The notes beneath the pieces were generated by a model. That model did not search any database. It had not been told where the DNA came from and saw only the letters and a list, made by a program, of their open reading frames with translations. A stretch of 64,000 bases of DNA. Source: a virus. This document shows positions 1,063 to 47,454 of the stretch, piece after piece. Made by a program: the position numbers and the translations under genes. Each line of letters begins with the position of its first letter. Positions within the stretch are counted from its first letter, which is position 1. The stretch lies in the IMG/VR virus record IMGVR_UViG_3300020194_001331, positions 43,497 to 107,496 of that record; one strand, written 5' to 3'.

Positions 1063-1063
1063 A

Positions 1064-2740: not shown

Positions 2741-2884
2741 TTATCTACCCTGCCCTCTATATGCCTTTTTGTAATTTCTACTATTTTTAGATTTTGAAGT
2801 TTTACTCTTAGCGTGAACACCAGGTCTCTTCTTACTTTGAGAACGATATAACGAAATACCAAAACCTCCCTTTGCTTTTGCCAT
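2741..2884 (-). CDS. Small basic protein (47 aa), conserved-looking phage protein
   Basis: A short frame MAKAKGGFGISLYR... ends in SRNYKKAYRGQGR and is rich in Lys, Arg and Ser. The composition and the RPGVHAKSKTSK core resemble a tiny basic protein I recall from marine T4-like phage genomes. A longer frame on the same strand (2704-2904) covers the same bases but has no recognisable character. A nucleic-acid-binding or virion role is plausible but unproven. Confidence 0.7.
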   Translation of the reverse strand: MAKAKGGFGISLYRSQSKKRPGVHAKSKTSKSKNSRNYKKAYRGQGR

Positions 2885-2936
2885 AATTTATTATTATATA
2901 CCAATAAGTATATTATACTAAATCAAACAAAAACAA

Positions 2937-3467: not shown

Positions 3468-3469
3468 CT

Positions 3470-4063
3470 TTATTCTTTTTCAGTTGCATACTTTACACCC
3501 ATAATCGTACCAACGATTGAGAATGCGTTAGTTAGGAGAATACCAAACATATTACTCCAAGTAGAACCTATGATTTGTGTATCAGTACCAGAAATCAATG
3601 CTAACCCATACATAGCAGTTGTGAGAACACCAACTCCTATAATCACATAAAGTGCTACTTTAACAATTGTACTGATTAACTCAAATTGTGTTTTCTTTTG
3701 CATTAGTTCCAAATCTTCTAATGCTTTACCCATTCCTTTTTCGGCTTCTTGTCTTAATTGATTTGCTTCTTCTTCAGATTGTTTTGCAGATTCCAAAGCA
3801 TCTTGAAGTTCTATCATCAATTCATCGGTTTCCTTTTGTTTATCAACCAACTCTTTGTTTTGTTGTTGAACTTGCTTAGTTACTTGTAATCTTTTTCTAC
3901 GAGCAGTAGAATCTTTATCCTTACATATTTTAAGATATTCTTCAAACTCGGTATCCCCATCGGGTGCTTTTAAGAGTTTAAGAAAGTTTCCTTCAACATA
4001 AACTTTCCTTTTCTTAGCAACACCCAATAGGATATCTCTGGTATGTTTCGTAACCTCAATCAT
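3470..4063 (-). CDS. Coiled-coil membrane protein (197 aa)
   Basis: A long charged coiled coil (about residues 55-125, Gln/Glu/Lys rich) is followed by two hydrophobic segments (about 132-155 and 165-188), with the end KYATEKE in solution. This predicts a membrane-anchored protein with a large soluble coil. It starts nine bases after the response-regulator stop. The family is not recognised; a host-membrane function late in infection is possible. Confidence 0.65.
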   Translation of the reverse strand: MIEVTKHTRDILLGVAKKRKVYVEGNFLKLLKAPDGDTEFEEYLKICKDKDSTARRKRLQVTKQVQQQNKELVDKQKETDELMIELQDALESAKQSEEEANQLRQEAEKGMGKALEDLELMQKKTQFELISTIVKVALYVIIGVGVLTTAMYGLALISGTDTQIIGSTWSNMFGILLTNAFSIVGTIMGVKYATEKE

Positions 4064-19619: not shown

Positions 19620-19816
19620 AGTTCTACTCCTCTTTTTTGAAGTTCTCTTTTAATCATTTGTTTTTTCTTCTTATAGGAAGGTGTGCCATATAACTTTATC
19701 AACTCTTCTGTTCCTGCCCCACTCAAAGTATAATGCTTCCAAAACCATTTATTGATTTGTCTGCCATTTTTATCTCTAAGATATTCCTTTGTACTTGGTT
19801 TTAATTTTGCTGGCAT
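19616..19816 (-). CDS. Small basic phage protein (66 aa)
   Basis: The sequence MPAKLKPSTKEYLRD...NKWFWKHYTLSG resembles a small basic protein I recall from marine T4-like phages; no function is known to me. It is Lys/Arg-rich. Both ends overlap neighbours (four and one bases). Confidence 0.7.
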   Translation of the reverse strand: MPAKLKPSTKEYLRDKNGRQINKWFWKHYTLSGAGTEELIKLYGTPSYKKKKQMIKRELQKRGVEL

Positions 19817-20472
19817 TATATTAATTTGTTTTCTTTTAAATAGTTGAACATATCGTTTCCAATCATTGAACCAAAATCTACATCCGATTGATAGTGAACT
19901 TTTGCAGTAACTCTACTCTTTGCTATATCTCTACCTAACCTCAAAATCTTTCCTCTATGTAAAGGATTTTTGTAAGCTAAATAATTGGATATCAGAATAC
20001 CTTGAGCTGCGTGTCCAGAAGGATAAGATGGTGAATCTGATGTTGTATCTTCGATTTCGTTAGTATCTAATTCTATATTAAGTAAAGGTGCTAATTTGTA
20101 AGGCCTCGGTCTATTGTAGTGATATTTTAAATCTAATATCACACCACTAGCAGCATCTTTTAAATCTTTTACCATTTCTTTTGGGAAATCAATATCTAAT
20201 TCTTCACATAAATTTTTAAAAGATTCTTTCACTTTATCCATCTTCAAAGTAAATTCATCATTAGATGGTATTTGTGATAATCTAATTAATTCCTGCATTG
20301 TTCTCATAGATTCGTTTTTATATGGAGGCATATTTTTATACCTCTCATACTTAAACCCAGAAAAAATAGATTTAGGAATTTCAGCAATACGGTCAGCATG
20401 TTTTGGTTCAACCGAATCATTATTGGTCAATCCATAAATCTTTCCCACATTTTTGAAATCATATACTAACAT
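19816..20472 (-). CDS. PAP2-family acid phosphatase
   Basis: The 218-residue protein has the three phosphatase motifs: KYHYNRPRP (about 116-124), PSGH (about 149-152) and SRVTAKVHYQSD (about 190-201). These bind phosphate and hold the catalytic histidines of PAP2 enzymes. There is no clear signal peptide or membrane helix, closer to soluble class-A phosphatases. It opens the envelope-gene region, so a lipid or sugar phosphate substrate is possible. Confidence 0.85.
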   Translation of the reverse strand: MLVYDFKNVGKIYGLTNNDSVEPKHADRIAEIPKSIFSGFKYERYKNMPPYKNESMRTMQELIRLSQIPSNDEFTLKMDKVKESFKNLCEELDIDFPKEMVKDLKDAASGVILDLKYHYNRPRPYKLAPLLNIELDTNEIEDTTSDSPSYPSGHAAQGILISNYLAYKNPLHRGKILRLGRDIAKSRVTAKVHYQSDVDFGSMIGNDMFNYLKENKLI

Positions 20473-20485
20473 ACCTATAAATATA

Positions 20486-20827
20486 TTATTCTATAATAAT
20501 AGTAGTTTTTTGGATTTCTTCTTTAGATAAAATTAATATTAAGTTTAATTCTCCTTTAGGTAAAGATTTTGTATAAAGGATTTTAGTATTCAATCCCATT
20601 GTTGGCATGAATGATTCTTTTGATATTACTGAACTATTTTGGTGTGATATAATCAACGTATATTCTTCAGTTGTTGATACCTCAAATGAGAACTCTTGTC
20701 CATCAACCACTTTAGATATTGATTCCTCAAATATCATTTCGTATTGTGGATATGGTTCAACAACCATTAACTCATCAGGTTGACAAGATACCAAAATTAA
20801 TAATATAAATAATAATATCTTTCTCAT
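20486..20827 (-). CDS. Small lipoprotein, partner of the PA14/dockerin protein
   Basis: The 113-residue protein has a lipoprotein signal with lipobox LVSC (Cys15), then a beta-rich mature domain. It overlaps the large PA14 gene by four bases. A second lipoprotein of like size and position (26516-26893) follows the other cohesin-like gene, so each large secreted protein has its own lipoprotein partner. It may anchor or receive its neighbour at the envelope. Confidence 0.75.
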   Translation of the reverse strand: MRKILLFILLILVSCQPDELMVVEPYPQYEMIFEESISKVVDGQEFSFEVSTTEEYTLIISHQNSSVISKESFMPTMGLNTKILYTKSLPKGELNLILILSKEEIQKTTIIIE

Positions 20828-22854
20828 TTTATAATTACATTTATTATATTAGCATTTACATCAACAACTTCTGATTTCTTAACCGATACCAATCCTAATG
20901 TTGATTCAAATGATTGTATTGGTTTAAAATAAATTTTATATTGAACGCCGCTGTTTAAGGTTAGAGAACCATCAGTTGATATAGAACCCACCTTAACATA
21001 AGAACTCCTCTTAGCATCAAAGCTATTCATCATTGTATTAGTTTCTAACTTATCATATTCTACTCGTTCATTATCAAACCCAATTCTAAATTCAGAACCA
21101 ATTAGATTAAAATTATTCTCAGGCAAATCTAATGTAATGATTATATGTTCTTCAGTTTTTTCAATATCTAAATCAACCTCTAACGAAGTATTGTTTTGAG
21201 TAGATGAATTTCTTACACTCATCATTCTTGAAGATATAGTAGATTGGGTAGCGGGTGAAGTACCTGTTTGGGGAGCAGAATGTGAAAGGTTTACATCACC
21301 TATAAAAGAAACCTTATACTCTAAAGTTTGTATCGTATCTATAAGACTAAACGTAAACGATGTTGATGGTGATTTATTTGTTTGTGTTTTCCAATTAGTA
21401 GTTGTAGTATTATCATATTCTGATTTAGGAACTATTCTCATTATATCATATAAACTTCCATCAAACGGAGTATCACCACCAGTCAAAAAAGATAATCCTA
21501 TTTGACTATCTTGAAAATCAAATTCACCATCTTGGTTAACATCTGAGTTTTGTAATTGGACTCCATTCAAATCTCCTTTTAATCCACCATTAATTCCACC
21601 ACCAGCTAATTCGTTAAATCCTGCAACTACATCTGCAACTGTAATATAATCATCCATAAATTCTTCTGCTGTCCATCCTTCTATATTGGTAGATGGATTC
21701 ATAAATGATACTTTATGTCCTTTGTATATTTCAACATCTTCAAATGAGAAATCTGCTTTTATTCCATAGAATCCATTTGCATCTCTTATATAAGATGAAA
21801 AGGTTGAACTTGTGAAATCAAATTGAGTATCAGTATAGATGTAATAATTTGCCCAATAGATATCATCTGACATATAAGTTATTTCACCATCCCATAAATC
21901 AAACAACTTTAATTGTTTCAAATCAGTAAAAGTAAATCCACTTGGAAATTCTCTTTTATCAATACCAACCCTGTATCGTTTGTTAGTTGTATCATAATCA
22001 TAAACCACACACCACTCCGTCCAACCACCAGTTGTAGTTGCCTTCTTACCATCTGCCATTTTGACTAAATTTAGATAATCAGTAATATCCTTACTACCAT
22101 CATCATCTAAATAATAAGAAGAGTTCATTGTAGATGTATTCAACCATTCAGTTCCATCTTGTGCAGAAGTTCCATCATAGTAAACTCTGAATCTATATTC
22201 TTCTGGTGCTAATTGAGAATGGAATTCTAAATCTAAATCTACTTCAGGACTTATTGGTTCTTCTTCTGGTTCTATATTAGTTACTTTAAGATACTGTGTT
22301 TGGTCACCAACATAAAACACATTAGCATTACTTGGAGGTGAGTACATAAAGTACATATAATCACCACCTGTATATTCTTGCCATTTTGTTTCAAAGAAGT
22401 ACCATTGTCCTGATGTTAAGGAAACATCCACAGAGGATGCACCACAACAAGGTCTAAATAGTTTTAAGTCTCCATCTATCCATAAACCACTACCATCATC
22501 TGATTGTAGGGTAAATCTGTAAGTTCCTGTTTCTTGTGGTTGAAACCAACCATAGTGATAAACGGCATAAAAATCATTCCCCCATCTGGAAGGTCTACCT
22601 CCTTTTAATCCTTCACTTGAATTAGCTACTGCTTCACCTTCATGTGTTAAAGATGTACCAGGGTGATTTACATCTAACATTGCTTGTAACTCGGTTGCGT
22701 TATCAGCTAATCCACTATATGTGTATCCATTATAGGTTGAACTATAACCATTCCCATAGTGAGTTTTATAGGATTTGTAATTTACATATCCTTCACCACT
22801 TTGTCCAAAAACTAAAGTGGGTAAAAATAATAATATGTAAAGAAGTTTTTTCAC
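20824..22854 (-). CDS. Secreted PA14-dockerin-cohesin-like protein
   Basis: The 676-residue protein has a signal peptide (1-17). A PA14-like domain follows at about 20-200 (GWFQPQETGTYRFTLQSDDG, SGLWIDG), usually carbohydrate binding. A central region leads to a dockerin-like segment near 420-465 with the EF-hand loop DVNQDGEFDFQD. A C-terminal cohesin-like beta domain (about 540-676) contains the strand pattern ...GSEFRIGFDNERVEYDKL. It overlaps neighbours on both sides. Dockerin and cohesin in one chain suggest self-assembly; this is inference. It shares its C-terminal architecture with 26896-28572. Confidence 0.75.
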   Translation of the reverse strand: MKKLLYILLFLPTLVFGQSGEGYVNYKSYKTHYGNGYSSTYNGYTYSGLADNATELQAMLDVNHPGTSLTHEGEAVANSSEGLKGGRPSRWGNDFYAVYHYGWFQPQETGTYRFTLQSDDGSGLWIDGDLKLFRPCCGASSVDVSLTSGQWYFFETKWQEYTGGDYMYFMYSPPSNANVFYVGDQTQYLKVTNIEPEEEPISPEVDLDLEFHSQLAPEEYRFRVYYDGTSAQDGTEWLNTSTMNSSYYLDDDGSKDITDYLNLVKMADGKKATTTGGWTEWCVVYDYDTTNKRYRVGIDKREFPSGFTFTDLKQLKLFDLWDGEITYMSDDIYWANYYIYTDTQFDFTSSTFSSYIRDANGFYGIKADFSFEDVEIYKGHKVSFMNPSTNIEGWTAEEFMDDYITVADVVAGFNELAGGGINGGLKGDLNGVQLQNSDVNQDGEFDFQDSQIGLSFLTGGDTPFDGSLYDIMRIVPKSEYDNTTTTNWKTQTNKSPSTSFTFSLIDTIQTLEYKVSFIGDVNLSHSAPQTGTSPATQSTISSRMMSVRNSSTQNNTSLEVDLDIEKTEEHIIITLDLPENNFNLIGSEFRIGFDNERVEYDKLETNTMMNSFDAKRSSYVKVGSISTDGSLTLNSGVQYKIYFKPIQSFESTLGLVSVKKSEVVDVNANIINVIIK

Positions 22855-23402
22855 TATTTGTTTGGATTATCAATTCTAAAATATATAGAACCTCCAATGT
22901 AAGGTCTTAATCTTCCTACATTAGTTTCTTTATCTAACAAATCATTTCTGAAACCAACATCTAAACTAAACATTTTATCTTTAGGTGTTTTGTGAATTAA
23001 CTTTATATTTGCTCCACTAAAATAATTTTCAAAATCGTATTGATAACCAAACCCTAAAAATAGTTTTTTCTCGTTGACGGGAACTTCAACAAGTCTATCT
23101 ACTACTTTATCCACATATACTTTTTTAGTAATTGGTATTTGTTTTTCAACAATTACTTCTACTGGTACTTCTACTTTAATTGTATCTCTTTCGATTTGTG
23201 TAATGTATTTTGGTACATATATTTTTTCTTCTATGATTTTATCTACATAGATTGTATCAGTAACAACTACTTCTACTTCTTTTACTACTTCTACATATTC
23301 TATTTTAGCTGGTCTTTGGTATTGTGTAGTATATCCAATAAACCAAAATCCGATTACTAATAAACAAAGTAACCATACAGAAATTTCTATTTTTTTATTC
23401 AT
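22854..23402 (-). CDS. Membrane-anchored repeat protein with beta-rich C-terminus
   Basis: The 182-residue protein has one N-terminal membrane helix (about 9-27). A Val/Glu/Lys repeat region follows (about 35-112) with recurring VEV-E-IYVDK-type units. The C-terminal domain reads like beta strands (FLGFGYQYDFENYF...GGSIYF) as in outer-membrane proteins. The middle could span the periplasm, linking inner and outer membranes much as spanins do. Family not recognised. Confidence 0.6.
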   Translation of the reverse strand: MNKKIEISVWLLCLLVIGFWFIGYTTQYQRPAKIEYVEVVKEVEVVVTDTIYVDKIIEEKIYVPKYITQIERDTIKVEVPVEVIVEKQIPITKKVYVDKVVDRLVEVPVNEKKLFLGFGYQYDFENYFSGANIKLIHKTPKDKMFSLDVGFRNDLLDKETNVGRLRPYIGGSIYFRIDNPNK

Positions 23403-23404
23403 AA

Positions 23405-25015
23405 TTAAAATGGTATTTTAGAACCTATCATAAACGAGTTTAATATCGGTAGATATTCACTCGTACTCATTATAACTGTCCACCCTACATTGAACGAAAA
23501 TCTATTAGTTAATTGTATTGTGAATGGGTTTGCTACTATAACCATTAAATCTTTATTGATTGTAGAAAAATCTACAATATCAGTTTCTTGCATTTGTGTA
23601 TATGATAATGGAGAACTAACTCCAACCAATGCTGGTGAATACATTATTCTATCAGTTATTTTTATCATATTAGAATAAACAACATTATATCCTAACATCC
23701 AAGACTTAGGAAGTTGTTGCCCTAATTGGTCTTTACCCGTCATATAAGAATAGTTAATACCCACACCAACAGTTCCCCACTTACCTAATGGTTTCATTCT
23801 ACTTGCTGATGCTGATATAGCATTCATCTTATAGTTTCTCATATAAGAAACCGAAACACCATCTACCCATGTTACTTCGTAATTATCATTCATAGTAACA
23901 CCTGATGTGTTAAGTGAAATGTTTGCTTGTTTAAGATTATCATATATCATAAGATTAGCACCATAACTTCTATCACCAAAAATAGAACTCATAGAAGCAC
24001 CGATATTAAGAACCGCATTATAATCCAAAGTAAGAGCTTGTTGAGCCATCATATCCGCCTTTAATTGAATAGGCATAAACTTTTTTTCCTTTTCATCTTC
24101 CTCATCTTCTTCATCTTCACCATCACTTTCTTCGGATTCTTCTTCATCATCCTCATCAGATTCTTCCTCATCTTCCTCAGATTCTTCTTCACTCTCTTCT
24201 TCTTCTGATTCCTCCTCACTCTCTTCTTCGGATTCTTCTTCTGAACTTTCTTCTTCCGATTCTTCTGATGATTCCTCTTCACTTGATTCTTCCTCTGAAC
24301 TTTCTTCAGATGACTCTTCTTCACCTTCTCCTTCACCTTCACCAGAACCTTCTCCTTCTCCTTCACCAGAACCTTCTCCTTCACCTTCACCCTCTCCACT
24401 ACCTTCTCCTTCACCTTCACCTTCACCGGAACCTTCACCAGAACCTTCACCTTCTCCACTACCTTCTCCACTACCTTCTCCACTTCCTTCGCCAGAACCT
24501 TCTCCACTACCTTCTCCACTACCTTCTCCACTACCTTCTGAACCACCTGATGAACTACTTCCATCACCACCACCGTCTGAACCACCTGACGAACTTGAAG
24601 ATGAACTACCAGAATCCCCTCCAGACGAACTTGATGATGAACTACTACTTGATGAAGATGTGTTGCTAGTTGATGAGGTATTTGTATTGGTTGTGTTTGT
24701 AGTGTTATTTGTGGCGTTATTCGCTGCGTTTTGTGCGTTGGTAGTTTGAGTTTGTGCAGCTGAACATGGGGAGAGTGCTTGCCACCAAGCATAAGTAGTC
24801 ATCAACCATTGGTGTAATTCTCCGTTTACATATTCTTGATATGTAAATACTCTAACTTTATTATAAAATGAAACAACTGCCGAACCCGTTTGAAAGTTGG
24901 CAGTTACTACTTGTACTTCACCAGTACATCTATCTACAAAGGTTTGTGTAAATGTCTGTCCGTAACTAACTTGTGTTACGAATATAAAAAATAGTATCGA
25001 TAGTAGTTTTTTCAT
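23405..25015 (-). CDS. Secreted outer-membrane protein with long Ser/Gly/Glu low-complexity region
   Basis: The 536-residue protein has a signal peptide (1-19) and a short N-terminal domain (about 20-95) with two cysteines. A low-complexity stretch (about 100-315) changes from Ser/Thr/Asn to GSGEGEG repeats, then to Ser/Glu and Glu/Asp. The C-terminal 215 residues have alternating strands ending in MIGSKIPF, as in outer-membrane barrels with a terminal Phe. The acidic linker may bind cations or project from the surface. It follows the CsgG-like gene by three bases. Confidence 0.7.
24075..24665. repeat. Low-complexity tandem repeat region
   Basis: Short units such as CCTTCTCCA and TCTTCT (plus strand) repeat for nearly 600 bases within the low-complexity part of the barrel protein. 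Long frames in other phases here are by-products of this repeat. Confidence 0.75.
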
Positions 25016-25018
25016 CCA

Positions 25019-25735
25019 TTAGTTTGGGAAGATTCCTTTTCGTATCATTCTTGCCACAATTCTTGCTGAAGCTGTTTCTAATGCTTTACGAGTTGCAACT
25101 CCGATACCTGATTCTCTAAATGCGATTTCATCTACATCTAAACCAATTAAACCTTCTTGAGTTTTAACAGTCTTAGCATCTCCTAAACCAGAACCTACCA
25201 AGTATCTACCAGTTTCAGCATCGGTAAATCTTACTTGTAATCCTAAACGAGTTGTTTGAGTTTGTTTAGAACCTTCTTTAAGTGAAAGTACTTCATCTTC
25301 CGATACTGAGAAATCGTATATCTCAATAGTTACAAAGTATTCAGCAAGAGTAATCTTACCCATACCATAAACTTTATTTTCAGATACACCTTTACGAGAA
25401 GCAACCCATTGTGATTTCATTCTATCTTTGATTGCAGATTTTTCTTCAACAAATTCAAATCTATTTGTCCAATCCAAATATTCGATTACAATGTTTGTAA
25501 GTCCTAAACCCACTCTACCATCCCTTAATTCAGGATAAGTTTCGTAGAGAGCATCTGAGATACCTACATCGAGTAGTGCAACAGGCAACATATCACCATC
25601 ATAATCCGAAACATCATCAATTGATTTTTTCTTTTCGAATTCAGCAACATATTCTTCTGCTTTAATACTTCCAACTTGCGCAAATGTGGTTTGTGTTAAA
25701 AATACACATACCAACAATAGTAATAATTTTTTCAT
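25019..25735 (-). CDS. CsgG-like secretion protein
   Basis: The 238-residue protein has a signal peptide (1-20) and the CsgG-type core: a strand with LPVALLDVGI, the NIVIEYLDWTNRFEFVEEKS helix-strand unit, the YFVTIEIYDFSVSEDEVLSL strands, and a C-terminal helix ASARIVARMI. CsgG forms an oligomeric outer-membrane export pore in curli systems. CsgG-like genes occur in some marine phages. No lipobox cysteine is placed as in canonical CsgG. A chain of tiny membrane genes is coupled upstream. Confidence 0.65.
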   Translation of the reverse strand: MKKLLLLLVCVFLTQTTFAQVGSIKAEEYVAEFEKKKSIDDVSDYDGDMLPVALLDVGISDALYETYPELRDGRVGLGLTNIVIEYLDWTNRFEFVEEKSAIKDRMKSQWVASRKGVSENKVYGMGKITLAEYFVTIEIYDFSVSEDEVLSLKEGSKQTQTTRLGLQVRFTDAETGRYLVGSGLGDAKTVKTQEGLIGLDVDEIAFRESGIGVATRKALETASARIVARMIRKGIFPN

Positions 25736-25833
25736 TATTCTTCCTTATCAAATATTTTCATTAATTGTCCGATTACAACGGACATACCTATAACGATTGC
25801 AGATGTTATTATAAACACATCTAATAATCCCAT
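25735..25833 (-). CDS. Tiny membrane protein (32 aa)
   Basis: The frame MGLLDVFIITSAIVIG... is one membrane helix with a charged C-terminus. Its stop overlaps the CsgG-like ATG (TAATG), and its ATG overlaps the stop of the next micro-gene in the same way. The double coupling supports translation. Confidence 0.6.
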   Translation of the reverse strand: MGLLDVFIITSAIVIGMSVVIGQLMKIFDKEE

Positions 25834-25934
25834 TATTTTTCCCTCATATGTTTTGTAAGATTAGGGTATAAATTTAATAGTTGATTATATACCCAACTAT
25901 CAATCTTACTCAATATATCAATTATTTTTTTCAT
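25833..25934 (-). CDS. Tiny amphipathic protein (33 aa)
   Basis: The frame MKKIIDILSKIDSWVYNQLL... is amphipathic helical. Its TAA overlaps the ATG of the next membrane micro-gene, and it begins two bases after the upstream stop. Function unknown; it is small enough to be a holin-like or membrane-associated peptide, which is speculation. Confidence 0.55.
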   Translation of the reverse strand: MKKIIDILSKIDSWVYNQLLNLYPNLTKHMREK

Positions 25935-25936
25935 AA

Positions 25937-26173
25937 TTAACAACAATAATCAAAGATACCAAATGTTGCATTTGCTACATCTGCTTCTCCTGATATTAAT
26001 CCGTATAATAATCCCGTCATTCCTACATAAAACAATACCAACAATATAGCAATCCAAATGCTAAAAAATACTGCTACTATTTTTTCATTAACAGTTTCGG
26101 CATCATTCCACATATCCACCATCGGCATAGTGTTTAGTTCCCAAAAATTTCTAAAGAATTTTAACATAATCAT
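25937..26173 (-). CDS. Small membrane protein (78 aa)
   Basis: One long or two short membrane helices lie at about residues 30-60, with the C-terminus ending FDYCC. A start two codons later is equally likely. It belongs to the chain of small membrane genes upstream of the CsgG-like gene. The paired terminal cysteines are unusual. Confidence 0.6.
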   Translation of the reverse strand: MIMLKFFRNFWELNTMPMVDMWNDAETVNEKIVAVFFSIWIAILLVLFYVGMTGLLYGLISGEADVANATFGIFDYCC

Positions 26174-26202
26174 TTAATTTAATATTAACAATATATAACT
26201 TA

Positions 26203-26505
26203 TTACCAATCTATTTCTTCTTCTTTTTCCTTCTTTTCTTTAACAGGAACTTCTTTAATAATTGTTTTAGTTTCTGTTTTTTGTTCAGGAATATTGATAA
26301 TGATTTCAGGTCCACTTACATTGACCTCTTGCTTTTGTTCAACTTGAACTTGTTCTGTTTTGGTTTCTTCTTCATCTCCAATACCAATGAATGTTTTTAC
26401 TTCATCCATAAACATTGTACCCAAACCAGTTAGGATAACCCCTGCACCAGTTATGATTTGATTTTTCAATTGTCCGAAGAACCCTACTTCTTTTTCTTCA
26501 CTCAT
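26203..26505 (-). CDS. Small membrane-associated protein with charged tail (100 aa)
   Basis: An N-terminal hydrophobic stretch (about 12-33) is followed by a Glu/Lys/Val-rich tail with coiled-coil character (about 45-100). It resembles a membrane-tethered adaptor. It lies between the second lipoprotein gene and the small membrane genes. Family not recognised. Confidence 0.6.
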   Translation of the reverse strand: MSEEKEVGFFGQLKNQIITGAGVILTGLGTMFMDEVKTFIGIGDEEETKTEQVQVEQKQEVNVSGPEIIINIPEQKTETKTIIKEVPVKEKKEKEEEIDW

Positions 26506-26515
26506 AATTTTATAT

Positions 26516-26893
26516 TTAGTTGTTTACTACGATTGAAGTTATACCTATGATATCGTGATTATCATCGGTCAACTCTAAAGTATAACCATCGTTTGATAAA
26601 GAAGAAACATATACTTTAAGAATATTATCTCCTTCGTTTGCTTGTAACTTTTCTTGAGATATAAGTTCTTTTCCTATATCTCTAATTTTAACTCTATAAG
26701 TTCCCGTATAAGGAAGTTTGATATTCATCTTAACTTCATCGGTTACGATTGTTGATTCTACTTTAATACCTTGTAAATCACCAATAACCAATGATTCAGG
26801 AACCTCTACTGTATTATCAATAGGAGAAAGGATTTCATCCTTAACACATCCCATTAATAAAACCAAAGATAATAATACTAATACTTTTTTCAT
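26516..26893 (-). CDS. Small lipoprotein, partner of the second cohesin-like protein
   Basis: The 125-residue protein has a lipoprotein signal with lipobox LMGC (Cys16) and a beta-rich mature domain (YTGTYRVKIRDIGK). It sits two bases after the cohesin-like gene and mirrors 20486-20827 in size, topology and position. The two likely descend from a duplicated module. Confidence 0.75.
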   Translation of the reverse strand: MKKVLVLLSLVLLMGCVKDEILSPIDNTVEVPESLVIGDLQGIKVESTIVTDEVKMNIKLPYTGTYRVKIRDIGKELISQEKLQANEGDNILKVYVSSLSNDGYTLELTDDNHDIIGITSIVVNN

Positions 26894-26895
26894 AT

Positions 26896-28572
26896 TTACT
26901 CCATTATAAATTTAATTTGTGTACCATCTGCTTTAACACCTTCATTAACTTTGAAAGTAATTAAACCTGATGTGTTTTGTAACTGTACGGTTGGTGTAAA
27001 GATTAACTTATAAGGAGTACCTGTCTTAACAGTTGCCTCAAAGTTTTGGTCAAAAGAACCTATATTTATTTTTCCATTTTCTTCAATGTGATTTGAGAAG
27101 TTGGTCATTGTATTACCAGTATCAAATATTACATCATCTAATACTAATCTCGTTCTATCGTAAACAATGTTAAACTGAGCACCAATCATTTCCTCAACCT
27201 CCGAACCTATTGTGAAGATTACTTGACCATCTTTTAATTCAGATGTTAAATCTAAATTAGCAGTTTCAGGATTAAGTTTTGCACCCCTTGCCATCATACT
27301 TCTTTGAGTAGTAGTTGATTGTGCTGAGGTTGGTATATCCGCATTAGTTGATGTTGGTTCAAATCCATGTGAGAAGTTTACATCACCAGAAATTGCATGA
27401 GCAAATTGGAACGATTTATCACTATCAGTTGGTTTGAATGTTGGTGAAACGGTTGCTATACCATTTACTTCATCACCAAAAGTAGATTTGATACCACTTA
27501 CATTATACACTTCACCTGTTTTTGAAATGAATGTTGTATTGGTAGATGTTACACCTTGTAGATAAGCAAGTATCTCATACGAATCATCAAAGTTTATATC
27601 ACCACCATTTGGAATAGAAGTACCTACAACATTCGCTAAAATACTTTGAATGTAATAATCAAATGTAGTTGAAATACCATTTGGAGAATCGCCTGCTCCT
27701 ATTGCTTCTGCAAACACCAATGATAAATCAGATACAGTTACTACATTATCTAAATACTCTTTAGATGAATCAATTGAAACATATAAATCATACTCAACAT
27801 CATTTTCCAAACCAGTTACAGTTGCATCACCAGCAGCATCAAAGTTACCACTTGCTATTGGATTAGTATTTTCACCTTTGTTATAAATTGTATAAGAGAA
27901 ATCACCACCATCACCAATATTATTTGTGATTACATTCGATGATACTGAAATAGAAACATTACCAGCATCACCACCTTGAATACCTGTTAACCCTATATTA
28001 GATTGACCAGTTACATCAATCTGAGTACCATCTGCTTCTTTATAGTTTGCCCAATTCACATTGATTAAATTAGTATAATCAGTATAGTTTGAATTTGCCT
28101 TATCTTTAATCTTATAAGATACCTTCATAATCTCATCACCATTTTCCAATGAAGTTACATCTTGATAAGTTACCCTTTGTACTGACCAATCAGCATTTGT
28201 TCCATAGGTAGCATCTCCACTTAACCAACTTAGATATTGCCCATCAAAATCAGTTTGGTCTTTTTCAGAATCAATAGTAAACTTATATCCATTCCAAGTG
28301 TTTACTGCTTTTTGTGAAGAGTTAGATGTTGGTTGCCAATCATTTTCAATAACATCCAATAACTTATTGTTATGTTGTATATCAAACTGATAAAGTGTCG
28401 CATCTGGCATATCATTACCATTAACATCAGTTCCTTTAAAGTATTGATATTTTACAATTAAAGTATCCCCTACTTGGGTTACTGTATTTACTCTCGAATA
28501 ATCCATACGAGATTGTCCAAAGACACTTAGTGTACACAATACACTAACTAATAATGTTAAAATTTTTTTCAT
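26896..28572 (-). CDS. Secreted dockerin-cohesin-like protein
   Basis: The 558-residue protein has a signal peptide (1-19) and beta-rich N-terminal domains. One stretch near 205-285 looks like a fibronectin/Ig-type repeat (DVEYDLYVSIDSS). A dockerin-like segment near 320-345 has GGDINFDDSYEILAYL. A C-terminal cohesin-like domain (about 430-558) has IGAQFNIVYDRTRLVLDDV. The C-terminal half is a paralogue of the 20824-22854 protein (both have GDVN-SH, MM-R, then the cohesin strands). It overlaps the next gene by four bases. Confidence 0.75.
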   Translation of the reverse strand: MKKILTLLVSVLCTLSVFGQSRMDYSRVNTVTQVGDTLIVKYQYFKGTDVNGNDMPDATLYQFDIQHNNKLLDVIENDWQPTSNSSQKAVNTWNGYKFTIDSEKDQTDFDGQYLSWLSGDATYGTNADWSVQRVTYQDVTSLENGDEIMKVSYKIKDKANSNYTDYTNLINVNWANYKEADGTQIDVTGQSNIGLTGIQGGDAGNVSISVSSNVITNNIGDGGDFSYTIYNKGENTNPIASGNFDAAGDATVTGLENDVEYDLYVSIDSSKEYLDNVVTVSDLSLVFAEAIGAGDSPNGISTTFDYYIQSILANVVGTSIPNGGDINFDDSYEILAYLQGVTSTNTTFISKTGEVYNVSGIKSTFGDEVNGIATVSPTFKPTDSDKSFQFAHAISGDVNFSHGFEPTSTNADIPTSAQSTTTQRSMMARGAKLNPETANLDLTSELKDGQVIFTIGSEVEEMIGAQFNIVYDRTRLVLDDVIFDTGNTMTNFSNHIEENGKINIGSFDQNFEATVKTGTPYKLIFTPTVQLQNTSGLITFKVNEGVKADGTQIKFIME

Positions 28573-29048
28573 AATAAATCTTTAATTATTTCTACTAAAA
28601 CCTTTTTTACAGCACTTGATGCCGTTTGTTGATTAAACGAACCATCTGATGCTACCACCAAAGTGGAGTTAGATATTTCTTTACTCACTCCTTTTTTAGT
28701 AACTCGTTTCTTTACTTTCTTACCAACTTGTAATTCTCCTATTGCAATGATTTGAGTTGCTGATACCTTATTATGATATACACCAATACTCTTACCAATA
28801 TTCTTTACATCAAAGAATACAAGTCTTATATTAATTTGTGTTTCTGCGTATGGGGATAAATCGTAATCCAAATCCATAAGAAGTTCTTCGGTAATATTAC
28901 GAACTCCCATAGCAAGATTTGCATTACCAGCGAAAGGTCCTAATCGGATTTCGTTTGTAACATCTCCTACCTTTATTTCTTGTGCGGATATACTTGATAC
29001 ACCCAATATTAAGAATAAAACAATTCCTAAAAATCTTAACGCATACAT
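28569..29048 (-). CDS. Secreted protein, possible CsgG/assembly-factor relative
   Basis: The 159-residue protein has a signal peptide (1-22) and a mature domain with GVRNITEELLMDLDYDLS, FFDVKNIGKS and a C-terminal helix that echo the second half of CsgG-like folds, but the match is weak. It is the first gene of the second envelope module and overlaps the cohesin-like gene by four bases. It may assist export or assembly of that protein. Confidence 0.6.
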   Translation of the reverse strand: MYALRFLGIVLFLILGVSSISAQEIKVGDVTNEIRLGPFAGNANLAMGVRNITEELLMDLDYDLSPYAETQINIRLVFFDVKNIGKSIGVYHNKVSATQIIAIGELQVGKKVKKRVTKKGVSKEISNSTLVVASDGSFNQQTASSAVKKVLVEIIKDLL

Positions 29049-29214
29049 AAAATGCCTACTTTATAGTTAAAGTAACCAATTGTATAACTTAATAATAAAA
29101 CGATTTATAAAACACCAGAGGAGAACCCTCCGATAAACTTAATTGAGATAACGATTATACTCGTTGAGTATTAGATACTATACAATGAGTATTTGTTATA
29201 AATATAAGTAAGTA

Positions 29215-30594
29215 TTAAATACCAATAGATTTTAGTCTTAGAATTTCATCCTTAATCTTTTGGTTAAATGGAGTCCAATTAAAATTGGTCAACATCCACT
29301 CTCTATAATGAGCAGGAATCTCTCTAACCTCTCTACCAGCATATTTACCAAACGGCATCTTAACTGATGGTGATGCAGCGGCTTTTTCATATGGTGATGG
29401 TTCACCTTCTATATGCAAACCAATCTCTTTTATAGGGATACCTGTTAGTAGTTTCTTTCCTTCACCATACATACTCCACCTTCCCTTATCTTCTTTGAAG
29501 TAGATATCTTCAACCTTTCCAAACTTTGGAACTGCTCCTACGAAATCTACAACCAATCCTTCTGATTTGTTTGGATGGATACGAGTAACTCTACCAACAA
29601 ATTGATACCACCAACTCAAAGAAGCAGTAGGTCTACCAGTTATGATACAATCTAATTCTGGATAATCAAATCCAACTGATAAGATATTAACTTGAGCGAT
29701 GCATCTTAACCTACCAGCTTTGAAATCTTCAATAATCTCTTTTCTTTCCGAAGTTGGCATATCAGAGTAAACTGCTTTACAACTTGGAATCATTGTAGTT
29801 AATTCTTTAGCCTCATCGATTGAAGGAACTGCTATTAAGATTGATTTTCTATTGTATAGTTCTTCAACCTTCTTTACAATCTTAGAAGATATCTTTTGAT
29901 TCTTATATGCTCTTTTTATAGATGAATTAGAATACTCAGCACCAGTTGTATTGTAAACCAAATCACCAGTATTGAAATCATAGGATTGATATTCTAATCT
30001 ACTCCAAAACTTTGATTCAACCATTTGTTGAATTTGGGCAACATGAATAATCTTTTTAAAGAAGTTACCTTTCTTAGAACGATTAGTTAACATAACCAAC
30101 TTAGAGAAAGGTTTACCATCTTCACCCATATTGGTTTGAAGTTTGAGAGGGGTAGCAGTTAGACCTAAAGTATGGATGATACCAGCTCCCTTTAAGAATC
30201 TTCTTAACATTCCATTTGGTTCTCTGGGAAACCTATCGCACTCATCGATGATTACTTTAGATATTCCATACTCTTTGAATTTATATGCTATATTAACAAT
30301 AGAACCAATAGTAGCATATGTTACATCACCAATCTCTTTTTCACCCATTGAAGCGGAATAGATAGTTGCTTCACCACCTAAGTTAGTAAACTTCTCATAG
30401 TTTTGTTCTAATAATTCTTTTGATGGTTGAATAACAAGTACCTTCTCTCCCACACCTTTTGCTATATGAGCAATAACAATTGATTTACCGAAAGCAGTAG
30501 GTGCTACGATAATTGATGGAACGGGTTTATTTTCAGAAAAATATTCAATACCCTTTCTAACAGGTTCTATTTGATTATTTCGTAATGTTAACAT
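29215..30594 (-). CDS. SF2 helicase, T4 UvsW-like
   Basis: The 459-residue protein has Walker A APTAFGKS (31-38), the DECD box (117-120), LTATP (about 145-149) and a motif VI QFVGRVTR. This is the core of the superfamily 2 helicases to which phage UvsW belongs, which remodels recombination and replication forks. The C-terminal 70 residues add a small domain (MPFGKYAGREVREIPAHY) also seen in other nucleic-acid proteins. It has its own promoter at 30637-30668 and is divergent from the TonB receptor gene. Confidence 0.88.
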   Translation of the reverse strand: MLTLRNNQIEPVRKGIEYFSENKPVPSIIVAPTAFGKSIVIAHIAKGVGEKVLVIQPSKELLEQNYEKFTNLGGEATIYSASMGEKEIGDVTYATIGSIVNIAYKFKEYGISKVIIDECDRFPREPNGMLRRFLKGAGIIHTLGLTATPLKLQTNMGEDGKPFSKLVMLTNRSKKGNFFKKIIHVAQIQQMVESKFWSRLEYQSYDFNTGDLVYNTTGAEYSNSSIKRAYKNQKISSKIVKKVEELYNRKSILIAVPSIDEAKELTTMIPSCKAVYSDMPTSERKEIIEDFKAGRLRCIAQVNILSVGFDYPELDCIITGRPTASLSWWYQFVGRVTRIHPNKSEGLVVDFVGAVPKFGKVEDIYFKEDKGRWSMYGEGKKLLTGIPIKEIGLHIEGEPSPYEKAAASPSVKMPFGKYAGREVREIPAHYREWMLTNFNWTPFNQKIKDEILRLKSIGI

Positions 30595-30843: not shown

Positions 30844-33564
30844 ATGAACAAAAATCAAGCAATTATGAAGCAATTTTTGATTGGGTTATTGATGGTTTTC
30901 ACCTCAATGACCGGTTTCGCACAAATCACTGGAACAGTGGTAGATGCAGAAACGAATGAACCCCTACCAGGCGCAACGGTAGTAATCAAAGGGACCCAAA
31001 ATGGTACAACAACCGATTTTGATGGTCTCTTTTCTATTTCTGGGGCATCCGCTGGTAACACTTTAGTAATTTCTTTTATTGGTTTCCAAACAACTGAGGT
31101 TGTTGCTGTGAACGATATGATTGTAAATTTACCAACTGCATTAAATCAGTTAGCTGAAGTGGTGGTTACATCAGGGGTAATTGATGTAGCAAAAGTAAGA
31201 GAAACTCCAGTAGCGGTATCATCGATATCACCAGCTGAGATTTCTCTAAAGGTTGGTAACCAAGAATTCCCTGAAATTATGAATAAAACTCCAGGGGTTT
31301 ATGCTACTAAACAAGGTGGTGGTTATGGTGATTCAAGAATCTCTCTTAGAGGATTTGACCAAAGAAATACATCTTTCCTTATTAACGGACAACCCGTTAA
31401 CGATATGGAGAACGGATGGGTATATTGGAGTAACTGGCAAGGTTTAACCGATGTAGCATCAGGTATCCAAATCCAAAGAGGTTTAGGTGCATCTAAGTTG
31501 GCAGTTCCTTCAGTTGGGGGAACTGTTTCCATTTTTACTAAAGCCGCACAGAAAACTGAAGGTGGTAAAGTAATTCAAATGGTTGGTAACGATGGATACA
31601 CCAAAACAGGAGTTTCTTACAACACAGGTAAGAATGATAAAGGATGGGCATCATCTTTCTTATTATCTAAGTGGGCTGGTAACGGATATGTTTACAACAC
31701 TTCAGGTGAAGGATGGACTTACTTCGCTGCAGTTGGTTACGCACCGGAAGGTTCAGACCATGAATTGAACTTTTCATTCTTAGGTGCAGGTCAATGGCAC
31801 CATCAAAGAGATGTTTGGGTATCTATTAGAGATTACCAAAACTTTGGTGAAGAAGGAATTGACCAGAGATGGAATTCTAATGGTGGTACACTAAATGGAG
31901 AAGAGTATTCTTTAAGAAGAAACTTCTACAACAAACCATTAGCAACTTTCAACTGGGATTGGAACATTTCAGATAACCTTAAATTAGCAACATCATTATA
32001 TGGTTCTGCTGGTAGAGGTGGTGGTACAGGTCCTCGTGGTAACAACTATCGTGCAGCTGCAACTGATATCTTACCTTTCAGAAAAGACCTTACAGAACAC
32101 TACTTAGAAAATGGTAGAGGTTCAAGAGATGCAAATGGATTCATCGATTTCGATGCAATCGTTGCAGCTAACCAATCAACTACTGAAGGATATACAGGTG
32201 ATATCTCAGCATTCCAAGGACAACTTATTGGTTCGAATGGATTCAGAGATTCTAATGTAAATAGAACAGTATTAGTAAGAAGAGCATCTATGAACTCACA
32301 CAATTGGGTTGGTGGTATCTCAAACTTAGAAGGACAATTTGGTAAATTCAAAACTTCTATTGGTGTTGATTTAAGAAGCTATACTGGTTATCATTATAGA
32401 GTTCTTAATGATTTAATGGGATTAGATGGTTATTACTCAACGGGTAACAAAAACTCTAACGGTCAAATCATCAATACTTTAGTTGAAGCAAATCCTTTTC
32501 AGAATACAGGTCTAAACGGTCCGAAGATTGATTACTACAATGTTGGTAAAGTTGGATGGCAAGGTCTTAATGGTTTAGTAGAATATCAGGGAGATAAATT
32601 AACTGCAGTAGTACAAGCAGGTTTATCTAACCAAGCATTCCAAAGAATCGATTATTTTGACCAACCAGGTAACCCAGAATCAGATGTTCAAAACCAAGGT
32701 GGTGGATATGTAAAGGGTGGTGCTAACTACAATATCGATGAGAAATCAAATGTGTTCTTTAACGCAGGTGTAATTTCAAGACAACCTCAGTTTGATGCAG
32801 TATTCCCTAACTTTGCTAATGAAATTAATCCAGATTTACAAAACGAAGAAATTCGTTCATTTGAATTGGGTTATGGTTTTATTGGTTCAGATGTATCGTT
32901 TAACATTAACGCTTACACAACAACTTGGGGTAATAGATTTGTTAGTAGAAGTTTATCTAACCAACAAGGTGTAGATGGATTTGCACAATTCAGAGATATC
33001 GATGTAGTACATAATGGTATCGAATTTGAAGGTAAGTATCAATTATCAAACGCAACGAGATTCAGAGGTATGTTATCAATCGGTGATTGGAGATATACTA
33101 AAGATTTCGAAGCAGAATTATTTGATGATAACCAACAATCAATCGGAACAGGTACTCTTTACCTTAAAGATGCTAAAGTTGGTGATGCTGCACAATTCGT
33201 AGCTGTTTTAGGAGTAGACCAGAAGTTAGGTAAAAGATTTAATGTTGATGTAGATTATAGATTTGTAGATGGATTATACGCTGACTACTCTATTACTGAT
33301 TCGGAGTTTACACAACCTGATAACTTAGGTGCGATGAAATTACCATCGTATGGTTTAGTTGATTTAGGATTGACTGGTAAGTTTGGTAAATTTACTGCGA
33401 GAGCTAATATCAACAACTTATTCGATGCTGTTTATATTGCAGAATCTAACTCTAACATTCATGCAGATGCTAGTTCAACTACATGGAATGGTGTTGATGT
33501 TAGAAACTCAGTATGGTTCGGATTTGGTAGAACTTGGAACGCAAGTTTAACTTATAGATTCTAA
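30844..33564 (+). CDS. TonB-dependent outer-membrane receptor
   Basis: The 906-residue protein has a signal peptide (ends near 26), a carboxypeptidase-regulatory-like domain (about 28-105, ITGTVVDAETNEPLPGATV) and a TonB plug (about 115-235, with ISLRGFDQRNTSFLINGQPV). A long beta barrel follows and ends in LTYRF, with a terminal Phe. This is the usual Bacteroidetes layout and appears complete. It is the only plus-strand gene and has its own phage-type promoter at 30709-30740 and a terminator after it. Its cargo is unknown. It could feed the infected cell, alter phage adsorption or replace a host receptor. Confidence 0.95.
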   Translation: MNKNQAIMKQFLIGLLMVFTSMTGFAQITGTVVDAETNEPLPGATVVIKGTQNGTTTDFDGLFSISGASAGNTLVISFIGFQTTEVVAVNDMIVNLPTALNQLAEVVVTSGVIDVAKVRETPVAVSSISPAEISLKVGNQEFPEIMNKTPGVYATKQGGGYGDSRISLRGFDQRNTSFLINGQPVNDMENGWVYWSNWQGLTDVASGIQIQRGLGASKLAVPSVGGTVSIFTKAAQKTEGGKVIQMVGNDGYTKTGVSYNTGKNDKGWASSFLLSKWAGNGYVYNTSGEGWTYFAAVGYAPEGSDHELNFSFLGAGQWHHQRDVWVSIRDYQNFGEEGIDQRWNSNGGTLNGEEYSLRRNFYNKPLATFNWDWNISDNLKLATSLYGSAGRGGGTGPRGNNYRAAATDILPFRKDLTEHYLENGRGSRDANGFIDFDAIVAANQSTTEGYTGDISAFQGQLIGSNGFRDSNVNRTVLVRRASMNSHNWVGGISNLEGQFGKFKTSIGVDLRSYTGYHYRVLNDLMGLDGYYSTGNKNSNGQIINTLVEANPFQNTGLNGPKIDYYNVGKVGWQGLNGLVEYQGDKLTAVVQAGLSNQAFQRIDYFDQPGNPESDVQNQGGGYVKGGANYNIDEKSNVFFNAGVISRQPQFDAVFPNFANEINPDLQNEEIRSFELGYGFIGSDVSFNINAYTTTWGNRFVSRSLSNQQGVDGFAQFRDIDVVHNGIEFEGKYQLSNATRFRGMLSIGDWRYTKDFEAELFDDNQQSIGTGTLYLKDAKVGDAAQFVAVLGVDQKLGKRFNVDVDYRFVDGLYADYSITDSEFTQPDNLGAMKLPSYGLVDLGLTGKFGKFTARANINNLFDAVYIAESNSNIHADASSTTWNGVDVRNSVWFGFGRTWNASLTYRF

Positions 33565-44383: not shown

Positions 44384-44463
44384 TCTTTATACTCCGAATA
44401 TCTTAAATATCCAGATAAAAGTCCTCCAATCACAATAATTACTATAATTGCTATATCACTCAT
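44377..44463 (-). CDS. Tiny membrane protein (28 aa)
   Basis: The frame MSDIAIIVIIVIGGLLSGYL... is one membrane helix. Its ATG overlaps the sulfotransferase stop as ATGA. It ends within the next promoter region. Confidence 0.55.
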   Translation of the reverse strand: MSDIAIIVIIVIGGLLSGYLRYSEYKDL

Positions 44464-45011
44464 CCTTTGTTTCTATATGGTATTTTTAAGTTACTAAACT
44501 TTAATTCTGGTAAAAAAGATTGAATATCCTCACCATTATTTTTTTCAATATCAAAAATCAATAATCGTTTAGCCATATTTCCCACAAAAAACTCTTCAAT
44601 AACTTTTTTGTGATAAAACCATTCGGATTTCCAATAATCAATTCTATCAATTCCATTTTCAATAGTAAATCCATATCCATCTGTAAAGGAAAGTGGATGT
44701 TTTTTATATTGTCTAATTCTACTATCTAACCACTTTTCTAAAGGTCTGATATTGTATATGAATTTAGAATTGGGATATTGTTCAGCAAATATTTGAAAGT
44801 TCCTTTGTATAAATCCAATATCAGTCCACATTACAATATCATTAGCTCCTTCACAAAGTAGGTTACCTTCACTTTGATTTTTTTTAAAATGATTAGCCCA
44901 TTTTCCTTCACCCCAATGTACGGATTTATATCCATTTTGAAGAAAAAAATCACAAAGAGATTGTGTTCCACATTTGTTAAATCCAATTTGAAATACTTTT
45001 ATCTTCTCCAT
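44460..45011 (-). CDS. Sulfotransferase-family protein
   Basis: The 183-residue protein has the PAPS 5'-phosphosulfate loop QIGFNKCGTQSL (8-19), and a later SKFIYNIRPLEKWLDSRIRQ segment like the 3'-phosphate-binding motif. It would move sulfate from PAPS to a sugar or other hydroxyl. It ends a cassette of sugar-type enzymes and overlaps the acyltransferase by 13 bases. Confidence 0.78.
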   Translation of the reverse strand: MEKIKVFQIGFNKCGTQSLCDFFLQNGYKSVHWGEGKWANHFKKNQSEGNLLCEGANDIVMWTDIGFIQRNFQIFAEQYPNSKFIYNIRPLEKWLDSRIRQYKKHPLSFTDGYGFTIENGIDRIDYWKSEWFYHKKVIEEFFVGNMAKRLLIFDIEKNNGEDIQSFLPELKFSNLKIPYRNKG

Positions 45012-45820
45012 TTTGGCATTCCATTTAATTTACCTTTGGATTCTTTTATCCATTTAGCAGGTACACCAACATAAACCCCACTCTTATCTATGTTTTTATT
45101 AACAACAGCACCAGCTCCGATAATTACATCATTTGAAGTAACGTTAACACCAGCTCTAAAAACTACACCACTTCCTACAAAGTTATAACCAGCAATTTTT
45201 GTTGAACCACCAGTTGATATATTGTTAGCGAAATGTACATACTCACCTATTTCAGTTCCATGCCCAATACAACATCCTGGCGCTAAGTTAGAACCCTCTC
45301 TAATAATCGTAAGTTCATTAGCTGAACCTCTAACTATAACACAATTACTACAAATCCTAACATTATTTTCAATTAAAACTCCACCTAACTGTCTGAGATA
45401 TACTTTTTTATTATTATCCCACACCCACATCATTCCTTCAGTTCCAATTGTACAATTGGAATCTATTGTTACATTATCACCAATTTTAGTATGAGAATAA
45501 ATTACAACATTTGGTCCAATAGTTACATTATCACCAATTTCTACTCCCACTCCAATTGTAGCAGTATTATGAATATCACAATTTTTACCCTTACTATACC
45601 CTTCATTTTCATTAAAAATGTAAGTATTTGATACTTTATTTGATAATTTGTAAAAATGTAGCTGAGGGTCCTCTACAACTATTTGCTCAACCGATTCATC
45701 AATATTGAATCTTTTTTTACATATTAACTTACAATTTTTTAAGTGAGATAGGTGATTTACATCATCACCATCATAATAGGTTGTAGAACCAAAACCAGCA
45801 TTTGGAAGAATTGATAACAT
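44999..45820 (-). CDS. LpxD-like hexapeptide-repeat acyltransferase
   Basis: The 273-residue protein has an N-terminal domain (about 1-75) then a left-handed beta-helix with many [LIV]GxxxxI hexapeptides (about 85-250: VGVEIGDNVTIGPNVVIYSH, and IGHGTEIGEYVHFANN). The layout matches LpxD-type N-acyltransferases, which acylate amino sugars. It is coupled to a second hexapeptide gene by one base. Confidence 0.8.
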   Translation of the reverse strand: MLSILPNAGFGSTTYYDGDDVNHLSHLKNCKLICKKRFNIDESVEQIVVEDPQLHFYKLSNKVSNTYIFNENEGYSKGKNCDIHNTATIGVGVEIGDNVTIGPNVVIYSHTKIGDNVTIDSNCTIGTEGMMWVWDNNKKVYLRQLGGVLIENNVRICSNCVIVRGSANELTIIREGSNLAPGCCIGHGTEIGEYVHFANNISTGGSTKIAGYNFVGSGVVFRAGVNVTSNDVIIGAGAVVNKNIDKSGVYVGVPAKWIKESKGKLNGMPKWRR

Positions 45821-47434: not shown

Positions 47435-47454
47435 TGATAAATCTAACTATATAT

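Follow-up and report, generated by a model that had tools for sequence, protein, structure and literature searches.

What would a large phage gain from a compact run of genes that encode, for the most part, proteins to be exported from the infected cell? The question is raised by a stretch of 64,000 nucleotides (hereafter the window) that corresponds to bases 43497–107496 of the 107,496-base virus record IMGVR_UViG_3300020194_001331, and in particular by a run of genes on its minus strand, referred to here as the module. The window is probably a piece of a phage of about 250 kb, since a viral contig of 252,603 bases encodes module proteins that are 100% identical, and the host group of this large phage is Bacteroidota. 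In the original prediction, made from the sequence alone, it was suggested that the two largest proteins of the run could polymerise head to tail and leave the cell through a CsgG-like pore, so as to build a surface fibre or coat. The one-direction run of mostly exported proteins was borne out, with all open reading frames (ORFs) confirmed on the minus strand at their predicted coordinates, and so was an envelope module that likely acts at the host surface; a fibre exported through a CsgG pore was not. The reading that we favour, with somewhat better than even confidence, is that the module displays glycan-binding heads on the surface of the infected Bacteroidota cell. The features on which this reading turns are the following:

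29048–19816 (−): the module gene run, 11 genes, mostly for exported proteins
28569–29048 (−): first gene of the run, mini-CsgG-like exported protein of 159 residues
26896–28572 (−): scaffold of 558 residues with signal peptide, cohesin-like N-terminal part (by eye), linker, degenerate dockerin, GDVN segment and C-terminal cohesin
27536–27759 (−): dockerin-like segment of this scaffold, with a degenerate calcium loop (columns of alignment A2, boundaries approximate)
26947–27198 (−): C-terminal cohesin of this scaffold (Pfam Cohesin E 2.2e-4, below cut-off)
26516–26893 (−): lipoprotein of 125 residues, C-V-K-D-E at the lipobox cysteine, mature part similar to a sorting domain of the type IX secretion system (T9SS)
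26203–26505 (−): small protein of 100 residues with one hydrophobic segment, a charged tail and a final Trp
25019–25735 (−): CsgG-like protein of 238 residues, signal peptide without lipobox
23405–25015 (−): outer-membrane-type protein of 536 residues with an exported N-terminal domain containing a conserved Cys, a Ser/Gly/Glu linker, a barrel-like C-terminal part and a final Phe
20824–22854 (−): head protein of 676 residues with signal peptide, PA14, dockerin with canonical loop and C-terminal cohesin-like segment
20486–20827 (−): second lipoprotein, 113 residues, beside the gene of the 676-residue protein, C-Q-P-D-E at the lipobox cysteine

Adjacent module genes are spaced by −4 to +29 bases (the second lipoprotein gene overlaps that of the 676-residue head by 4 bases), with the exception of 201 bases before the CsgG-like gene. 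Signal peptides were called by eye; a crude count discriminates poorly, as nearly all module proteins pass it but so do 252 of 794 other ORFs.

That these genes belong together is indicated by their recurrence, which was followed in two sets of relatives. The first set consists of 82 loci; the first scan gave at least 375 CsgG-like relatives among at least 599 candidate viral stretches, of which the best 80 were kept. The second was collected with a divergent CsgG-like query, which was positive in 243 of 281 stretches, the best 80 being kept; it overlaps the first scan (five contigs are in both sets) and provides 58 loci with flanks, not made non-redundant. When the gene order was sought in other phages, as the original prediction had suggested, a core was found to be common to all 35 non-redundant first-set loci with flanks: the small protein ending in Trp, the barrel and the mini-CsgG are present in 35/35, the scaffold lies within 5 kb in 34 and 6.4 kb upstream in L017, a dockerin-based head occurs in 28 and a lipoprotein in 13. 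The 58 second-set loci have the scaffold in 57, the barrel in 58, the mini-CsgG in 55, the small protein in 48, a lipoprotein in 40 and a fused sorting domain in 9. Since the gene set is kept across many divergent phage contigs, the module is not a product of chance. Among 50,697 phage records the CsgG-like relatives were found only in isolates of Flavobacterium phage immuto (4 records), and a search of 84,980 bacterial and archaeal genomes with conserved CsgG-like peptides returned 3 loci, i.e., two contigs from Bacteroidetes bins (L086 and L087) and one from the phylum KSB1. Contigs L086 and L087 carry the phage module plus phage neighbours and are therefore phage DNA binned as bacterial. 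A scan of 395 Bacteroidota genomes, with at most 7 candidates scored per genome, was positive only in the bin with the phage contig, and 6 of 82 KSB1-phylum genomes were positive, mostly weakly. Given so few bacterial loci, the CsgG-like protein is, within reach of these searches, mainly a phage family.

The scaffold is met in three layouts. The fused one, present in 54 of the 82 first-set loci, is a protein of about 640 residues that consists of a cohesin-like part, linker, dockerin, GDVN segment, cohesin and T9SS sorting domain; in the window-type layout (24 loci of that set) the chain is broken after the cohesin and the sorting domain is separate; in immuto the break falls after the GDVN segment, and two proteins of 363 and 243 residues match profile positions 1–370 and 405–633, so that the same domain string as in the fused scaffold is divided elsewhere. 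The kinship of the window's 558-residue protein and the 640-residue fused scaffold is evident from profile-profile comparison (probability 98.9, E 3e-17). Dockerin-like and cohesin segments, which had been proposed for both large proteins of the window, are supported by sequence profiles across related records: Pfam Cohesin was found in 33 of 35 (above cut-off in 24) and Dockerin_1 in 28 of 35, though part of these matches fall elsewhere than in the module and the cut-off is passed in just 3 records, while the alignment of the big proteins matches a cohesin in the PDB (E 0.0013) and the immuto scaffold gene matches both Cohesin (5.9e-9) and Por_Secre_tail (2.4e-8). The calcium loop of the 558-residue protein is degenerate, as it is in most scaffolds by the strict motif DxNxDxxxxxxD, which is retained in 11/54 fused and 4/24 window-type scaffolds. 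At E 1e-25 the scaffold profile matched none of 296 Bacteroidota genomes (at most 4 candidates scored per genome, without positive control), and tblastn with the window's 558- and 676-residue proteins matched no phage record.

The sorting domain links the scaffold to the host secretion route. Por_Secre_tail was detected in 27 of the 35 related records, above cut-off in 22; the window's own record had no such match and does not qualify as carrying T9SS type A cargo. A correction to the original prediction is that the two small lipoproteins resemble T9SS sorting domains. The 125-residue lipoprotein matches DUF3244 (E 0.0017) and Por_Secre_tail (E 0.0036), both below cut-off; the profile of its family matches 11/11 members of the second family (best E 3e-16), and the lipoprotein families align by hhalign with the fused sorting domains (probability 89 to 92, E 2e-6 to 6e-7). 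The link between sorting domain and lipoprotein is made stronger by two relatives: in L048 a window-type body (E 4e-54) has the sorting domain still fused (38.3 bits), and in L082 the lipoprotein itself attains the Por_Secre_tail cut-off (27.0). Judging from these profiles, in the clade of the window the sorting domain has apparently been split off as a lipoprotein of its own. The residues after the lipobox cysteine are in keeping with a surface position, as the Bacteroidota surface-lipoprotein export signal is described, in a passage of PMC5080379, as C-X-K-(D/E)2 or Q-A-(D/E)2 after the cysteine; the CVKDE of the 125-residue lipoprotein fits the former, and the CQPDE of the 113-residue one is near the latter. 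Under a uniform calling rule, strict C-X-(K/R)-(D/E)2 is found in 16 of 33 lipoproteins of these families versus 1 of 73 others in the same loci.

The heads are the variable element. In the window's 676-residue protein the predicted PA14 domain scores 25.5 bits against a Pfam cut-off of 24, the dockerin (window 21505–21618) is weak by Pfam (E 0.007), and the C-terminal half matches the 558-residue scaffold type by profile. Positions of about 170–365 in the scaffold profile match the head proteins as well (E about 1e-20 to 1e-27), from which the heads can be described as a lectin-type domain placed on the linker-dockerin-GDVN base of the scaffold. Pfam families in the heads scanned are Lectin_C, Laminin_G_3, Ig_7 and PA14, one head being without any family, and no enzyme family, glycoside hydrolases included, was found in them; in immuto a C-type lectin protein (3e-15) is encoded close to the Cohesin and Por_Secre_tail gene. 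Six non-PA14 heads scanned in the first set have no cohesin, and one second-set head (L155) shows a cohesin below cut-off. A head like the N-terminal half of the window's 676-residue protein occurs in 14 of 58 second-set loci; three of these were scanned and gave Lectin_C in two and PA14 in one, all above cut-off, and three other large downstream proteins of this set matched no family. The strict calcium loop is carried by 37 of 50 heads and 7 of 11 PA14-type proteins, versus 2 of 261 other ORFs longer than 300 residues. Because canonical loops are mainly in heads and rare in scaffolds, docking of heads onto the scaffold is favoured over chaining of scaffolds.

Comparison of near-identical modules demonstrates that heads are exchanged while the dockerin-type base is kept. 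Loci L046 and L047 share 99.6% identity in the CsgG-like protein, 93% in the scaffold and 96% in the barrel, but their heads come from different families and can be aligned (at 79% identity) across no more than 37% of their length; the same pattern is seen in L056 and L062, with heads aligned over 31%. A reverse transcriptase able to diversify lectin heads was found in 0 of 17 records. Three immuto isolates differ at 84 sites across a 15-kb stretch, not confined to the lectin gene.

The CsgG-like protein is the part of the module for which a structure was predicted, and here the original assignment holds: the outcome that would have told against it, a confident model devoid of the fold, did not arise. 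The AlphaFold model, built with a 40-sequence alignment, has a predicted local distance difference test score (pLDDT) of 70.6 and a predicted template modelling score of 0.62 (a model without alignment, pLDDT 38.8, was discarded). With Foldseek its top 18 PDB matches are all CsgG or curli-complex chains (best 4uv2, E 4.5e-8), and VIA-align superposes it on CsgG with Z 12.5 and a root-mean-square deviation of 3.3 Å over 166 aligned residues, followed by PelC (Z 9.5) and LptE (about 8.9). According to this model 25019–25735 has the CsgG fold, its role as a pore being putative. At the sequence level, Pfam CsgG (PF03783), which does find CsgG in control genomes, matched 0 of 13 phage records, and neither profile A1 nor the KSB1 relative matched any PDB sequence; the phage profile finds the bacterial proteins L091 and L094 (E 1e-8 and 6e-6), which are CsgG by Pfam. 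A correction concerns 28569–29048, which proved to encode a second, shorter CsgG-like protein, as the profile of its family also matches 54 of the 82 CsgG-like proteins (best E 3e-9). By a permissive pattern a lipobox is present in 20 of 82 copies of the CsgG-like protein and missing from 62, the window's among them. Its first hairpin region seems short and barely amphipathic and its second shorter than in E. coli (from a weak profile alignment, E 0.031). Export through a CsgG pore is thus unproven, because the hairpins look shortened, a lipobox is lacking in the window's protein and the scaffolds of many relatives bear a T9SS signal.

In the KSB1 contig, L088, a bacterial relative of the CsgG-like protein (36% identity; Pfam CsgG 25.7 bits, cut-off 20.8) was found. 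Positions 787–3591 of this contig encode a CsgG-like lipoprotein, then a 414-residue barrel-type protein with a low-complexity linker, whose layout resembles that of the phage barrel, and another CsgG-like protein; no cohesin genes were seen on it (it is 6.7 kb long and from a metagenome bin). It is possible that L088 represents a bacterial version of the core.

The partners of the CsgG-like pair are likewise kept. The family of the 536-residue protein (alignment A6) is present in 76 of 82 loci; its C-terminal barrel was judged by eye from the sequence, and the linker is 42% acidic across 202 residues. The 100-residue small protein has relatives in 79 of 82 loci, and all 79 end in tryptophan although the remainder diverges; this residue may perhaps be a docking tag for another module part.

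How these parts would work together can be proposed as follows. In many relatives the secreted scaffold, with its C-terminal cohesin, would be fixed outside the cell by the host T9SS through the fused sorting domain; in the clade of the window it would be held with the help of a separate, flipped surface lipoprotein descended from that domain. Exported heads, of PA14 type in the window and of C-type lectin, LamG or Ig type in other loci, would dock through their dockerin base onto the scaffold cohesin, on either side of the outer membrane. Together with its mini paralogue and the barrel, the CsgG-like protein may form an outer-membrane ring-and-barrel complex that releases or holds the heads; it is for this outer-membrane step that ring and barrel are proposed, since no T9SS sorting domain was found in the head proteins. 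The purpose may be to cover or occupy host surface glycans and thereby to keep both other phages and the progeny of this one from adsorbing, or alternatively to alter the adhesion of infected cells. Docking, surface location, the part of ring and barrel and the purpose are what we infer from these data, and the gain is likely to be receptor masking or changed adhesion.

Several observations weigh against surface display of heads. In the window itself the cohesin, dockerin and sorting-like matches are all under Pfam cut-offs, and the predicted structure covers the CsgG-like protein only, cohesin and dockerin resting on sequence profiles. The strict export motif is uneven, being present in 13/19, 3/11 and 0/4 members of three lipoprotein families and in 0/38 second-set lipoproteins, in 27 of which at least two acidic residues stand close to the cysteine. 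A dockerin-based head is absent from 7 of the 35 first-set loci, and the first-set dockerin-head profile, which PA14-type heads escape, matched 0 of 58 second-set loci; display of heads may for these reasons not be the sole job of the core. Finally, 16 of the 35 loci encode an endolysin (GH19 with a peptidoglycan-binding domain, or an M15 peptidase) on the same strand at a distance of no more than 5 to 6 kb, and in immuto an annotated glucosaminidase gene stands at 22.1 kb, 5.7 kb downstream of the module. These neighbours would suit a lysis module, in which the CsgG-like protein, the barrel and the small membrane proteins open or break the outer membrane late and the cohesin proteins have a subsidiary part. 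By eye, a holin-like appearance was noted for several of the small membrane proteins encoded next to the CsgG-like gene, and the 125-residue lipoprotein weakly matches Rz-like spanins (E 0.02). Yet neither endolysin family is nearby in the other 19 loci, five small membrane proteins scanned have no Pfam family, immuto has an annotated chitinase and holin at 43.7–44.8 kb (a distance of about 28 kb) and a lysozyme at 146 kb, and it is not evident what lysis would gain from swappable lectin heads or a T9SS signal, which leaves this explanation unlikely.

The fibre or coat of the original prediction, i.e., head-to-tail polymers that are joined through dockerin and cohesin and exported through a CsgG-type pore, draws on the CsgG fold and on the presence of both segments in one chain in both large proteins; the 676-residue protein has a canonical loop and could still dock to itself. 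It is nevertheless improbable, as the loop of the 558-residue protein is degenerate and the strict loop is absent from 20 of the 24 window-type scaffolds and 43 of the 54 fused ones, the cohesin is missing from the six first-set non-PA14 heads (although L155 of the second set shows one below cut-off), and the hairpins that would make the pore look short, the first barely amphipathic. C-type lectin folds are common among phage adhesins, and the exchange of heads on a constant base resembles that of tail-fibre heads, so the lectin and PA14 heads might instead be receptor-binding proteins of the particle whose swapping alters host range. We regard this as more improbable still, for signal peptides, T9SS sorting domains and lipoboxes send the proteins out of the cell in which virions assemble, and the immuto module (10.5–16.4 kb) lies amid genes of replication and nucleotide metabolism, those of replication being on its upstream side, with annotated virion genes at 82–101 and 119–154 kb, although a permuted genome would put the tail genes about 17 kb upstream of the module. 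Least probable of all seems a role in nutrition, in which lectin heads would collect polysaccharide for the infected cell together with the neighbouring TonB-dependent receptor: the heads are of glycan-binding types and such a receptor is beside the module in 6 of 82 loci, but it was not found in the other 76, is on the opposite strand in the window, and no glycoside hydrolase was found in the heads scanned.

The display of heads by a scaffold can be set beside several known systems. The closest counterpart is phage immuto (MW353175 and two sister isolates), which has the same lectin head, cohesin-dockerin/T9SS scaffold, small protein, CsgG-like protein, barrel and mini-CsgG; it differs in that the scaffold is divided after GDVN and the sorting domain is kept on the cohesin, and no window-type lipoprotein was seen. 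Its genes were deposited separately, mostly as hypothetical, some being labelled cohesin and lectin. With the curli channel CsgG (PF03783) of E. coli the window's protein shares the fold; unlike it, it has no direct Pfam match, no lipobox and apparently shortened hairpins, and as no CsgE, CsgF or curlin was matched by Pfam among the module proteins of the window, a curli system was rejected. PelC/PelB and LptE/LptD are exporters of polysaccharide or lipopolysaccharide, and the likeness to the PelC ring with the PelB barrel and to LptE with LptD consists of a CsgG/LptE-like fold beside a barrel-type gene. A cohesin scaffold with dockerin-bearing partners is shared with the cellulosome (the window's own matches being below Pfam cut-offs); unlike there, the partners carry domains of glycan-binding types and not enzymes, the system is phage-encoded and most scaffold dockerin loops are degenerate. 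A cellulosome proper was rejected, as no dockerin-bearing enzyme occurs in the scanned heads, and so was plain T9SS cargo, as there is no sorting domain above cut-off in the window's record. In Cryophage, genes of a Bacteroidetes phage with T9SS type A sorting domains, one with PA14, vary between variants, as reported in PMC7468147; a word search of its main text finds neither cohesin nor curli; a list in PMC7003362 includes csgG among marine phage virulence genes. Parts of the module are thus already known, and the literature searches, only some of which were aimed at the module and outside which most subscription journals lie, found neither a description of the module nor a phage-encoded cellulosome-like display system.

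The remaining features of the run and its border are these:

25937–26173 (−): small membrane protein of 78 residues, no Pfam match
22854–23402 (−): protein of 182 residues with an N-terminal membrane segment and a charged repeat region, spanin-like only by eye
19816–20472 (−): PAP2-family phosphatase directly downstream, Pfam PAP2 42.7 bits
29113–29135 (−): terminator-like stem-loop between the upstream helicase gene and the module, consensus match only

The slot of the 78-residue protein is filled by other small membrane proteins in related loci, and the 182-residue protein, which has no Pfam family, is found in 11 of 82 loci, 10 of these with a window-type scaffold. The PAP2-type phosphatase lies within the range of the original prediction but has no evident signal peptide; it is present in 10 to 12 of 82 loci and probably stands outside the module proper. 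The leader before the module (29040–29230, −), which contains the terminator-like hairpin, folds better than shuffled sequence (z −2.68), and a promoter scan gave matches at chance level. In the window's record the terminase gene is about 60 kb from the module. PHROGs scans of the module proteins gave no confident match, the weak ones being a head protease against the low-complexity linker (E 0.0006), a Zot-like profile against the small protein (0.002), a family of unknown function against a small membrane protein (0.0014) and the Rz-like spanin mentioned above; PADLOC returned no defence family.

A TonB-dependent receptor of 906 residues (30844–33564, +), with plug and barrel above Pfam cut-offs, adjoins the module. 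In the 6 loci with such a receptor the identity is 60 to 100% (one locus is the same phage and one a fragment), and only 2 phage records match over 80% of its length, at 34 to 35%; its recurrence beside the module makes it look like one of the phage's resident genes. Ten tRNA genes lie within about 4.2 kb (57250–61475). Sulfotransferase-like and sugar aminotransferase-like genes were noted by eye at 44460–48093 and 59498–60040, and glycosyltransferase-like genes stand just upstream of the module in L004 and L006, which suggests that these phages do further surface-glycan work.

One may ask what the module would mean for the phages that carry it. That it is a portable, dedicated display machine whose swappable dockerin-based lectins recode the glycan surface of the infected cell is a stronger proposal, to which we give somewhat less than an even chance. 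If true, lytic phages would, beyond lysis, rebuild the cell exterior with exchangeable lectins through host secretion routes, and a function would be given to a set of genes that many viral contigs carry but that has no confident PHROGs match. Phage control of surface glycans would be testable in the isolate immuto and its Flavobacterium host, and the module would be a source of natural swappable cohesin-dockerin pairs. The display role, if shown, would constitute a new kind of phage system.

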